Notes under the pieces: generated by a model
Database searches by the model: none
Seen by the model: only the letters and a program-made list of their open reading frames with translations
What the model was told of the DNA's origin: nothing
Assembly (NCBI RefSeq): GCF_010729665.1
Contig: NZ_AP022610.1
Coordinates: 5,456,001 to 5,520,000, forward strand
Direction: 5' to 3'
Source: Mycolicibacterium madagascariense
GTDB lineage: Bacteria > Actinomycetota > Actinomycetes > Mycobacteriales > Mycobacteriaceae
Length of the DNA: 64,000 nt
Part shown: piece by piece, positions 16,218-22,591 of the stretch
How the letters are laid out: each line of letters opens with the position of its first letter
Position numbering within the stretch: position 1 is the first letter of the stretch
Program-made: the position numbers and the translations under genes

Positions 16218-16783
16218 CCGAGGATGAGGCGCGCCGACGTCTCCAGCCGCCGCGCGATCTCCGGGTAGGTCGCGTATCCCATGCCGGCGCGGACCAGGGC
16301 ACCGGAGTACAGCATCTCCAGGGCGTCGAGGACGTCGTCGTCGACCTCGGGGCCCAACGCCGCCGACAGACGGGCCCTGATGTCGGTACCGATGCGCTGA
16401 CGCAGCACCTCGACGTCCGGGTCCTTGCCGAGCAGCGCGCTGGTCACCGCACCCGCGAACTCCGGTTCGTCGGCGACGAGCAGCGAGACGTGCTGGAGGA
16501 CGTCGATCACGCGCGCCGCGCGGTCCTCCGACGCGTGCGGCACCGGCGGCGCACCCGCGAGCCGACGCCAGAAGACCTCGGCGACGAGGTGTTCCTTCGA
16601 CGAGAAGTAGGTGTACGCGGTGGCCGCTCCGACCCCCGCCTCGGCGGCGACGCGGCGCACGGTCAGCCCGGCGAAGCCCTCCCGGTTGAGCAGGTCGACC
16701 GCGGCTCGGCCGAGGCGGTCGACGGTGTCGGCCTGCTTGGCGGTCAGACGGCGCCGAGTCGACTCCAGAGCCGGATCGGACAC
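16214..16783 (-). CDS. TetR-family regulator, probably autoregulated
   Basis: A 189-residue TetR repressor with HTH at about residues 21-66 ([16 protein letters not shown], then [13 protein letters not shown]). The start is GTG at 16783, which lies inside the palindrome CGGACA-TG-TGTCCG. A -35/-10 pair sits just upstream, so the transcript would begin almost at the start codon, a leaderless arrangement common in mycobacteria. The same palindrome with the same promoter geometry occurs before the glycosyltransferase operon at 22547-22591, making this protein the best candidate regulator of that operon. It is divergent from the methyltransferase at 16837. Confidence 0.88.
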
Positions 16784-16820
16784 ATGTCCGGACGCTACTA
16801 CAACCGCCCGTGACCAGCAA
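16777..16820 (-). promoter_or_regulatory. promoter with GGACA-NN-TGTCC operator over the TetR start
   Basis: Read on the minus strand: -35 TTGCTG (16820-16815), a 17-base spacer, -10 TAGCGT (16797-16792), two bases, then GGACA-TG-TGTCC inside CGGACATGTGTCCG (16790-16777). The GTG start codon (16783-16781) falls in the right half of the operator, so a bound repressor would cover both the transcription and translation starts. Confidence 0.65.
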
Positions 16821-16836
16821 CGGTAAGTTGACCGTC

Positions 16837-17511
16837 ATGACCGCTCCCGACACTGCCCTGCCGCCGCCCGCCGCGCGACTCTTCGCGCTCGCCGAGCAGG
16901 TCACCGGGTTCATGCCCGCCGACGAGGGACGCGCGCTCTACGACGCCGCGGTCGGGTACCTGCGCGACGGCGTCGGCGTGGAGATCGGGACGTACTGCGG
17001 CAAGTCGACGGTCATGCTCGGCGCCGCGGCACAGCAGACCGGCGGCGTGCTCTACACGATCGACCACCACCACGGGTCCGAGGAACACCAACCCGGCTGG
17101 GAGTACCACGACACCTCGATGGTCGACGCCGTGACGGGACTCTTCGACACGCTGCCGACGCTGCGGCACACCCTCGACGCCGCGGGCCTCGACGATCACG
17201 TCGTCGCCGTGGTGGGCAAGTCGTCGGTGGTCGCGCGGTCGTGGCGCACGCCGCTGCGGTTCCTGTTCATCGACGGCGGCCACACCGATGCCGCGGCCCA
17301 GCAGGACTTCGACGGGTGGGCCCGGTGGGTGAGCGTCGGCGGCGCGCTGGTCATCCACGACGTGTTCCCCGACCCGAACGACGGCGGCCAGGCGCCCTAC
17401 CGCGTCTACCGCCGGGCCCTGGACACCGGCGCGTTCCGCGAGGTCTCCGCGATGGGATCGATGCGCATCCTGGAGCGGACGTCCGGCACCCCTGGCGAGG
17501 CGCTGGACTAG
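16837..17511 (+). CDS. class I SAM-dependent methyltransferase
   Basis: A 224-residue Rossmann-fold methyltransferase of the Methyltransf_24 type. The SAM-binding motif is [11 protein letters not shown] (about residues 47-57). An acidic loop follows with [15 protein letters not shown], and FIDGGHTD (about 140) is the typical post-I/III strand. The substrate is unknown. The ATG at 16837 (MTAPDT) is preferred; GTG at 16810 is also open. It is divergent from the TetR at 16783, only 53 bp away, so it may share the palindromic operator. Confidence 0.8.
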
Positions 17512-20566: not shown

Positions 20567-21283
20567 TCAGGCCGCCGGCTTCTCGAAGTAGAGCGCCACG
20601 CTCTTGCCGATCAGCGGGTTGAGCACGGATTCCGCGTGGCGCGTCAACCATGGTCGGGACATCATGTCCCACACCAGCATTCGGTGGTAGGCGGTCACGG
20701 CGGGATGGTCGGGCTTGTCGACGCCGACCGCGCACTTGAGCCACCAGAACGGCGCGTGCAGCGCATGCGCGTGGTGCTGATGGTCGAATCGCAGTCCCCG
20801 CGCGGTGATCTTGTCGCGCAGCTGGTCGGCGTGATAGATCCGGATGTGGCCGCCCTCGTTGGCGTGGTACTCGTCCGACAGCAGCCAGCAGACCTTCTCC
20901 GGCAGCCAGCGCGGGACCGTGACGGCAAGGCGCCCACCGGGTTTCAGCACGCGGACCAACTCGGCGATGGCACGGTCGTCCTGCGGGACGTGCTCGAGGA
21001 TCTCCGAGGCGATGACGAAGTCGAACGCGCCGTCGCCGTAGGGCAGGTCGAGCGCGTCGCCCTTGACGGCCTCGGCCTTCGCCGACGCGGGCGCCTCGCC
21101 CTGGTCCTGCATGGCCTGCAGGATCGCGTCGACGTTGTTGAGCTCGGCCGCGTCCTGATCGAAGGCCACGACGTCGGCACCGCGCCGGAACGCCTCGAAC
21201 GAGTGCCGGCCCGCACCGCAGCCGACGTCGATCACGCTGCTGCCCTCGACCACGCCGAGCCGGTCGAAGTCCACGGTCAGCAT
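20567..21283 (-). CDS. class I SAM-dependent methyltransferase in the glycosyltransferase operon
   Basis: A 238-residue Methyltransf_11-type enzyme. Motif I is VIDVGCGAGRHS (about residues 18-29), the acidic residue at the end of strand 2 is in VAFDQD, and the post-motif is ILEHVPQDD followed by LKPGGRLAVTVPRW. The ATG at 21283 overlaps the end of the glycosyltransferase frame by 7 bp, so translation is probably coupled. A substrate delivered by, or shared with, the adjacent glycosyltransferase is likely, for example an O-methylated sugar. Details are inference. Confidence 0.85.
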   Translation of the reverse strand: MLTVDFDRLGVVEGSSVIDVGCGAGRHSFEAFRRGADVVAFDQDAAELNNVDAILQAMQDQGEAPASAKAEAVKGDALDLPYGDGAFDFVIASEILEHVPQDDRAIAELVRVLKPGGRLAVTVPRWLPEKVCWLLSDEYHANEGGHIRIYHADQLRDKITARGLRFDHQHHAHALHAPFWWLKCAVGVDKPDHPAVTAYHRMLVWDMMSRPWLTRHAESVLNPLIGKSVALYFEKPAA

Positions 21284-22512
21284 GTCCCCACTCGTTTCAT
21301 CGCGCGTTCGTAGACCGACACCGTTTGTGCGGCAACCGATTCCCAGCTGAAGACCTCGACCGCGCGCTGACGTCCGTTGGCGCCGAGGCGGCGCAACTCC
21401 AGCGGAGAGTCGAGCAGCTCGCCGAGCACCCTGGTCAGGTCGTCGACGTCGCCGGGCCGCACCAGGCGGGCGCAGACGTCGTCGTCACCGACCACCTCGG
21501 GCAGCGCTCCGGCGCGGCTCGCCACGATCGGCGTCCCGCTGGCCATGGCCTCGACCGCGGGCAGCGAGAACCCCTCGTACAGCGACGGTATGCACGCGAC
21601 CTCGGCGGAGGCCAGCAGGTCGGCCAGCTCCCTGTCGCTCAAACCGCTCGAGCTGTGCACGATGTCGGAGATGCCGAGTTCGGCGATGAGCTTCTCGGTG
21701 GGACCGTTGGGTTCGAGCTTGGACACCAGCTGGACGTCGAGATCGCGCTCGACGCGCAACCGGGCCACCGCGTGCAGCAGGTGGCTGACACCCTTGAGCG
21801 GCACGTCGGCGCTGGCGATCGCGATGATGCGGTTGCGCACGCGAACGTCGCTGGGCCGGAACAGATCCGTGTTCACCCCGAGCGGCACGACGTGCAGCTG
21901 TCCCGGCGCGACCGCGAAGTCGTCGGCGATGTCCACGGCCGAGGAGGACGAGACGGTCAACAGTTCCGGAATCCGGCGGGCCACCTGCTTCTGCATCTCG
22001 GCGAAGCCATACCACCTGCGCACCAACGGCTTTCGCCACCACTTGGCGGCGGCGACGTCGACCACGCGATCGCGGGTGATCGGATGGTGGACCGTCGCCA
22101 CCACCGGCAGGCCCAAATCCGCGATCGCCAGCAGACCGTCGCCGAGGCTCTGGTTGTCGTGCACGACGTCGAACTCGTCGCGCCGCGTGGCGAGGATGCG
22201 GGCCACCCGCAGACAGAACGTCTTGGGCTCGGGGAACCCGGCGGTCCACGTCGTCGCGAGCTCCAACAGGTCGATCCGATCGTGGATCTCGCTGGGCCGC
22301 GGAATCCGGAACGGGTCGGGCTCGCGGTAGAGGTCCAGGCTGGGCACCTTCGTCAGTCGTACCCGCGGGTCGAGCCCCTCGGGATACGGCTGACCGGAGA
22401 ACACCTCGACGTCGTGGCCAAGTTCGACGAGACCGCGACTCAGGTGGCGGACGTAGACGCCCTGCCCACCACAATGCGTCTTGCTTCGGTAAGACAGCAG
22501 GGCAATTCGCAT
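21277..22512 (-). CDS. GT4-family glycosyltransferase (GT-B fold)
   Basis: A 411-residue retaining glycosyltransferase. The N-terminal nucleotide-fold has CGGQGVYVRHLSRGLVELGH, and the C-terminal donor domain has the GT4 signature YEGFSLPAVEAMASGTP (about residues 318-334) with the two conserved Glu. It is cytosolic, with no membrane span. First gene of the operon with the methyltransferase and toroid protein. A 45-base leader follows the promoter at 22563-22591. Donor and acceptor are unknown. The operator immediately after the -10 suggests TetR control. Confidence 0.9.
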   Translation of the reverse strand: MRIALLSYRSKTHCGGQGVYVRHLSRGLVELGHDVEVFSGQPYPEGLDPRVRLTKVPSLDLYREPDPFRIPRPSEIHDRIDLLELATTWTAGFPEPKTFCLRVARILATRRDEFDVVHDNQSLGDGLLAIADLGLPVVATVHHPITRDRVVDVAAAKWWRKPLVRRWYGFAEMQKQVARRIPELLTVSSSSAVDIADDFAVAPGQLHVVPLGVNTDLFRPSDVRVRNRIIAIASADVPLKGVSHLLHAVARLRVERDLDVQLVSKLEPNGPTEKLIAELGISDIVHSSSGLSDRELADLLASAEVACIPSLYEGFSLPAVEAMASGTPIVASRAGALPEVVGDDDVCARLVRPGDVDDLTRVLGELLDSPLELRRLGANGRQRAVEVFSWESVAAQTVSVYERAMKRVGTC

Positions 22513-22546
22513 CTACTTCACCACGGCCAGAGTCGGAATCTGCGCT

Positions 22547-22591
22547 CTGGACATGTGTCCAGACTATAGTTTGACAAGCTAGCAGCCGCAA
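22547..22591 (-). promoter_or_regulatory. promoter with GGACA-NN-TGTCC operator before the GT4 operon
   Basis: Read on the minus strand: -35 TTGCGG (22591-22586), a 17-base spacer, -10 TATAGT (22568-22563), two bases, then CTGGACA-CA-TGTCCAG (22562-22547). Every spacing equals that of the promoter at 16777-16820 in front of the TetR gene. Confidence 0.68.

Follow-up and report, generated by a model that had tools for sequence, protein, structure and literature searches.

The 64,000-nucleotide (nt) stretch of Mycolicibacterium madagascariense DNA analysed here (the window; positions 5456001 to 5520000 of the 5.71-Mb chromosomal contig of a genome that also has a second, 228-kb contig, C2) contains the gene for a TetR-family regulator, P1, and a three-gene operon, manT-meT3-mmpH, assigned below to methylmannose polysaccharide (MMP). 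Both are preceded by predicted promoters ending in the palindromic core GGACA-NN-TGTCC (Table 1). The initial annotation of this DNA described two promoters of identical geometry and operator at 16777-16820 and 22547-22591, and reading the sequence confirms them: both, on the minus strand, consist of TTGC.., 17 bp, a TA-type −10 element, two bases, and the core. The two bases are CC between TAGCGT and operator 1 and CT between TATAGT and operator 2; an alternative manT −10 element, TAGTCT, directly abuts operator 2 (0 bp). As that annotation also proposed, the TetR gene and the operon appear to have one conserved operator in common, and the TetR gene looks autoregulated.

Table 1. Features of the TetR P1 and MMP locus in the window
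Feature	Position	Strand	Basis
TetR-family regulator P1, 189 amino acids	16214-16783	-	PF00440, 56.5 bits; GTG start (16781-16783) inside its own operator
Operator 1, GGACATGTGTCC	16778-16789	-	Over the P1 start codon; sequence and conservation
P1 promoter, predicted	16792-16820	-	-35 TTGCTG 16815-16820, 17-bp spacer, -10 TAGCGT 16792-16797; sequence
meT1, MMP 1-O-methyltransferase homologue	16837-17511	+	6G7D, E 7.8e-118; PF13578
mmpH, MMP endomannosidase homologue ("toroid", (alpha/alpha)6 barrel)	19492-20562	-	7QSJ, E 1.5e-204
meT3, putative MMP 3-O-methyltransferase	20567-21283	-	PF08241; position in the cluster as for pMeT3 in the main text of PMC9883506
manT, MMP alpha-(1->4)-mannosyltransferase homologue (glycosyltransferase family 4)	21277-22512	-	7QSG, E 3.6e-229, residues 1-411
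Short open reading frame (ORF), 13 codons	22513-22554	-	ATG inside operator 2; stop codon TAG abuts the manT ATG
Operator 2, GGACACATGTCC; 16-bp palindrome CTGGACACATGTCCAG	22549-22560	-	In the manT promoter; sequence and conservation
manT promoter, predicted	22563-22591	-	-35 TTGCGG 22586-22591, 17 bp, -10 TATAGT 22563-22568; sequence, conserved geometry

The MMP gene cluster

Judged by homology, the operon together with meT1 is the MMP biosynthetic cluster. The structure 7QSG is deposited under another molecule name and is one that we take to be ManT; 7QSJ is named "Methylmannose polysaccharide hydrolase (MmpH)" in its entry; and 6G7D, "Methyltransferase domain protein" in the PDB, is presumably MeT1. 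The last assignment is consistent with the gene set of PMC9883506, the main text of which describes the same four genes (meT1, mmpH, pmeT3, and manT), the ManT of M. hassiacum with a ManT structure, and the (alpha/alpha)6 barrel fold of MmpH. The window proteins are thus homologous to the solved MeT1, MmpH, and ManT; for meT3, the methyltransferase domain and the position match, and the solved-structure comparison found no specific solved homologue. A terpene-cyclase-like toroid was ruled out, MmpH being the sole solved match at E 0.001. What the initial annotation called an uncharacterised glycoconjugate pathway is therefore the MMP pathway of PMC9883506; that paper reports M. smegmatis to be an MMP producer, and MMP is proposed there to sequester acyl-coenzyme A (acyl-CoA) chains. 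That main text contains no operon, promoter, transcription, regulator, or CYP51 ("tetr" occurs there in sugar names such as tetramannoside). The TetR, the operator, and the CYP51 neighbourhood are added here, and the window's cluster differs in being split by GGDEF and DUF2127 genes.

Among 60 fetched relatives, manT, meT3, and mmpH are consecutive in all; 59 have meT1 downstream of them in the opposite orientation, the exception (L124) being a piece that ends too early. In the window, a DUF2127 membrane protein gene and a gene for a GGDEF diguanylate cyclase (17508-19473) separate mmpH from meT1; this insertion was otherwise seen only in two close relatives (L072 and L073) among the 60, and other gaps of at least 1 kb between mmpH and meT1 occur in L074, L079, L087, L090, and L094.

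Conservation of the operator

Within the window there are two exact core sites; when one mismatch is allowed the number of sites rises to five, where 2.85 would be expected, and 18 of 100 shuffled sequences give as many. One-mismatch counts were therefore discarded as evidence, and the window alone is no proof of an operator. In the whole 5.94-Mb genome the exact core occurs nine times and a reversed-pattern control once. Seven sites are chromosomal and lie over start codons or within ∼150 bp upstream of them. They are situated at P1, at manT, at a TetR paralogue (P2), at an aldehyde dehydrogenase gene divergent from P2, at a third TetR gene (P3), and, twice, at a thiolase-like gene. The same palindrome thus stands at three TetR genes, and at P2, P3, and the thiolase-like gene, as at P1, the start codon falls inside the operator. 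The two remaining sites, on C2, are intragenic, look like chance, and were discarded as evidence. At P3 (L005:3583-4179) and the thiolase-like gene (L006:3050-4261), TANNNT directly precedes the operator.

Conservation was assessed in a genus sample of 98 genomes, 75 of them MMP positive and 23 without MMP genes, by scoring the closest match to the core among the 200 nt that precede each gene; one MMP-positive genome (G085) was untestable owing to contig ends. Upstream of manT, 58 of 74 genomes have an exact core and 15 a core with one mismatch, 73 in all; the remaining one, the draft G005, has three mismatches. The operator is thus conserved upstream of orthologous operons. Both palindrome arms are conserved at manT, not only the ATG side; the majority promoter sequence is GTCAAACTATAGTCTGGACACATGTCCAG, and the geometry is exactly TTGC-N19-TATAGT in 50 of 74 rows. 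By the same scan and threshold there were no matches at meT3 (0/61), mmpH (0/61), PPOX (0/24), P450 (0/31), or the second TetR gene (0/31), and 0.47% of 1480 shuffled sequences matched. P1's own operator is present with at most one mismatch in 48 of 49 loci, the aligned P1 start codon lying inside the operator in all 49, and GTAGTAGCGTCC of the P1 promoter is retained in most relatives. The spaced pattern TANNNTGGACANNTGTCC gave 179 matches in 90 of the 98 genomes, compared to 1 for the reversed control. In a second set (the best 80 rows of a list limited in length), all 59 scorable mycobacterial rows were within one mismatch upstream of manT; some species occur in both sets, and among the 60 rows there are a few bins that carry other names. 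The relatives cannot be counted as independent observations, given the common history of clades; L228 and L229 are near-copies of each other, and L203 and L238 come from one genus. Several of the genomes are drafts.

The scan also found the core (at most one mismatch) at meT1 in 49 of 60 cases, because meT1 is divergent from the TetR gene and the intergenic region is common to both. The operator site lies ∼47 bp upstream of the meT1 start codon, and a leaderless-looking candidate promoter, TAAGTT, is found at 16824-16829. Direct operator control of meT1 is probably not exerted, because 10 of 11 rows that lack P1 have no site within two mismatches upstream of meT1 (L118 has one with a single mismatch). 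The methyltransferase gene at 16837, suggested by the initial annotation as a possible fourth member, does belong to the set as MeT1 of the MMP cluster, but its control by the operator is improbable.

The short ORF before manT, starting from the operator ATG or GTG, terminates before manT in 61 of 61 loci; it has 8 to 35 codons, and its length and sequence differ between clades. It may encode a leader peptide that is translated without a leader sequence, and in some clades it may be translationally coupled. An Rfam scan of positions 14000 to 24000 gave no matches.

P1, its paralogue P2, and the CYP51 locus

P1 has a TetR_N helix-turn-helix and a helical ligand domain, with a palindromic operator in its own promoter. 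Its predicted model (ten helices, pLDDT 85.4) has KstR as the best structural match, well above other TetRs, and this fold points to a sterol- or acyl-CoA-type ligand, instead of the pathway product or precursor favoured by the initial annotation. KstR (Rv3574), the cholesterol catabolism repressor, has a different operator, presumably TnnAACnnGTTnnA, and a different gene context. P1 is not among the Rv0767c orthologues: in the tree, a branch (100/97) sets the mycobacterial P2 proteins apart from P1, which belongs to a separate clade from the Rv0767c type and goes with TetRs of non-mycobacterial genera; for P3 and a few rows, the tree program flagged long branches. Beside P1 in the window, a cytochrome P450 gene (14150-15511) is divergent from another TetR gene (15519-16217), near methionine sulfoxide reductase-like genes. 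The region 14150-16217 is one that we take to resemble the Rv0135c-cyp138 region, and about half of the fetched relatives keep its P450 and TetR genes close to P1.

In the genus sample, a P1 orthologue (at least 65% identity) occurs in 54 of 75 MMP-positive genomes and in none of the 23 MMP-negative ones, and P1 is near the MMP cluster in all 49 loci that have it. The association between TetR and operon proposed by the initial annotation is thus upheld, but exclusive control by this TetR is not: the exact core lies upstream of manT in all 21 MMP-positive genomes without P1, some of which are single-contig assemblies (G006, G031, and G045). P2-type matches (42 to 50% identity) were found in 20 of these 21 genomes. 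Two of them (G017 and G096) have no exact core other than the one at manT and two at P2; one further exact core occurs in each of G046 and G045, and three in each of G006 and G031.

The P2 locus has the order aldehyde dehydrogenase, TetR, CYP, short-chain dehydrogenase/reductase (SDR), CYP51, and its CYP51 matches PDB chains labelled Rv0764c (E 2.6e-243). This order equals that of the Rv0762c-Rv0771 list given in PMC10470581, in which those genes drop together to 0.14- to 0.25-fold. P1 and P2 are 49% identical and have in common a 10-residue stretch in the helix-turn-helix region (recognition helix), where P3 differs. Since the two share this stretch and the manT operator is kept without P1, cross-regulation is likely on sequence grounds, and an exclusive P1 link is untenable. 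The base pair flanking the manT core is T..A in 48 of 61 loci and C..A in 13, whereas the operators of the regulators themselves have T..A (P2, 20/20) or C..G (P1, 47/49); the manT flank is therefore mostly P2-like rather than P1-like.

The Rv0767c/motif X regulon, as described in PMC6593523 and PMC10312376, likewise includes a TetR with its gene start at the motif, and the motif is found at cytochrome, dehydrogenase, and TetR genes. The GAC/GTC enrichment at Rv0767c sites fits GGACA-NN-TGTCC, the likeness being one of composition and gene context. According to PMC6593523, motif X is very similar to an Rv0767c motif and is located at 14 operons, including three TetR genes, of Mycobacterium sp. 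VKM Ac-1817D; phytosterol induced 12 of these operons >3-fold.

Other genera

A family sample of 151 genomes from 31 genera was searched for P1 at E 1e-30, a threshold at which a few P2-type matches are included. P1 matches were found in 98 genomes (20 genera) and mmpH homologues in 76 (14 genera). Outside the genus, 56 genomes have both; in 54 the two genes lie on one contig, always within 35 kb (nearest TetR copy; median distance, 12.2 kb; within 15 kb in 41), and in 2 drafts (G155 and G186) they are on different contigs. In the second set, 13 of 20 non-mycobacterial rows have no P1 relative in the fetched flanks, which extend at most 10 kb.

Gene-by-gene reading of 16 loci with both genes showed, in 13, either CYP51 or the pair of aldehyde dehydrogenase and CYP123, inside the interval or next to it. 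In L226, manT-meT3-mmpH, meT1, SDR-aldehyde dehydrogenase, and TetR-CYP123 lie within 11 kb; Rhodococcus sp. HM1 carries the aldehyde dehydrogenase-CYP123 form; and in Nocardia transvalensis, N. macrotermitis, N. jiangxiensis, and N. otitidiscaviarum, meT1, the TetR gene, and CYP51 are within ∼5 kb. CYP51 was observed 0.1 to 2.3 kb downstream of a P1-type TetR gene, with meT1 or manT nearby, in the non-mycobacterial loci L215, L230, L233, L302, L305, L311, and L315. In Haloechinothrix halophila (L317), the MMP cluster has a CYP123-like P450 (61%) and an SDR (54%) beside it and no P1 relative within the flanks that were fetched; this linkage may extend beyond the family.

Proposed mechanism and alternatives

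From the sequence elements and their conservation, the protein identities, neighbourhoods, paralogues, and predicted fold, we infer binding, repression, a ligand, and cross-regulation, and we consider it probable that the KstR-like TetR paralogues P1 and P2 act on one operator at manT-meT3-mmpH and at the TetR genes. The palindrome CTGGACA-NN-TGTCCAG would serve a KstR-like subfamily of TetR proteins as operator. It lies over the TetR start codon and over the point where transcription of manT-meT3-mmpH presumably begins, and a TetR dimer bound there would obstruct RNA polymerase at the two promoters. A hydrophobic CoA-type ligand, perhaps a sterol side-chain or long-chain acyl-CoA, would release the repressor; MMP would then be made, together with or beside lipid oxidation by P450s and dehydrogenases, and the repressor would subsequently restore itself. 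At least two paralogues would read the operator in M. madagascariense, P1 and P2 (the latter of the Rv0767c type, at the cyp51/cyp123/aldA locus), and in genomes without P1, P2 would act alone.

The initial annotation had the local P1 alone controlling both itself and the operon, which would agree with the constant proximity of P1 to the cluster and its restriction to MMP-positive genomes in the genus sample. The manT promoter, read with TATAGT as the −10 element, also has the 2-bp spacing to the operator seen at P1, compared to 0 bp at P2 promoters. This model is nevertheless unlikely, given the exact operator in every P1-lacking MMP-positive genome, the identical recognition-helix stretch in P2, and the TAGTCT reading of the manT −10 element with 0 bp. 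We also think it improbable that P2 is the real manT repressor everywhere and P1 mainly self-regulating: this would suit the near-universal P2-type matches in genomes without P1, the P2-like flanks at manT, and the similar motif that PMC6593523 assigns to the Rv0767c orthologue, but P1 strictly co-occurs with MMP genes in the genus sample and stays nearby. Preservation of the manT palindrome for another reason, such as another regulator or leaderless initiation of the short ORF, with no TetR action there, would fit the termination of that ORF before manT in every locus; conservation of both arms and recurrence of the palindrome at three TetR genes make it very improbable.

Several observations weigh against joint control by P1 and P2. 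The likeness of P1 to KstR is one of predicted fold only (∼20% identity; KstR profile NF033703 scores P1 at 34.5 bits, compared to a cut-off of 280). The flank argument is weak, as the P1 flank (C..G) is also codon constrained, and so is the spacing argument, as the manT −10 element can be read at 2 bp or 0 bp. PMC10470581 assigns the Rv0762c-Rv0771 block to the putative ArsR-type Rv0576, not to Rv0767c; according to PMC6593523, M. smegmatis showed no induction of most genes of the putative regulon described there; and the Rv0767c motif computed in PMC4482099 (1.2E-14) ranks below the significance cut-off set by that paper. P1 relatives at E 1e-30 are absent from 11 of the 67 genomes outside the genus that carry mmpH. 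Conversely, 32 of the 88 P1-positive genomes there lack mmpH, and this occurrence of the TetR without MMP genes also speaks against the exclusive TetR-MMP link of the initial annotation. Finally, of 40 scorable rows from other genera, only 4 show a core with at most one mismatch within 220 nt of manT, the other 36 having two to four mismatches. At 20 TetR loci of other genera, the core lying over the start or no more than 80 bp before it has at most one mismatch in 14, two in 5, and three in 1 (L218). From this difference, the operator at the TetR gene looks old and that at manT mostly mycobacterial. The four manT rows are all Rhodococcus-like (L224, L234, L312, and L313, the last with an extrapolated start), and in them a conserved TGTTCTAG-type box is followed by the core-like site, which lies ∼30 to 50 bp before manT.

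Implications

Each of three elements, the enzymes of MMP synthesis, autorepression by TetR proteins, and a motif of the Rv0767c type, is already known by itself. No paper joining the three was found in open-licence literature, including a search for methylmannose with cyp51; for MSMEG_6480-6484, nothing was found apart from the MMP paper; and no regulator of MMP genes was found in the open-licence literature searched, which covers few subscription papers and no bioRxiv preprints.

More tentatively, and with some doubt, we suggest that MMP synthesis and the CYP51/CYP123/aldehyde dehydrogenase locus are the two halves of what was ancestrally a single lipid-handling regulon. Genera resembling Nocardia and Rhodococcus would often have both halves joined in one cluster around a single TetR of KstR-like type; in mycobacteria the halves would have come apart, each keeping or gaining a TetR paralogue and the same operator. 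MMP might serve as a carrier or buffer for CoA thioesters or sterol-like lipids handled by the P450s and dehydrogenases, with the TetRs sensing thioesters. A common operator, paralogous repressors, and a neighbourhood recurring across genera would tie the MMP genes to CYP51. The physiological relevance of mycobacterial CYP51 is called unclear in a review (PMC6469627); if true, the proposed regulon would give bacterial CYP51 a partner pathway.

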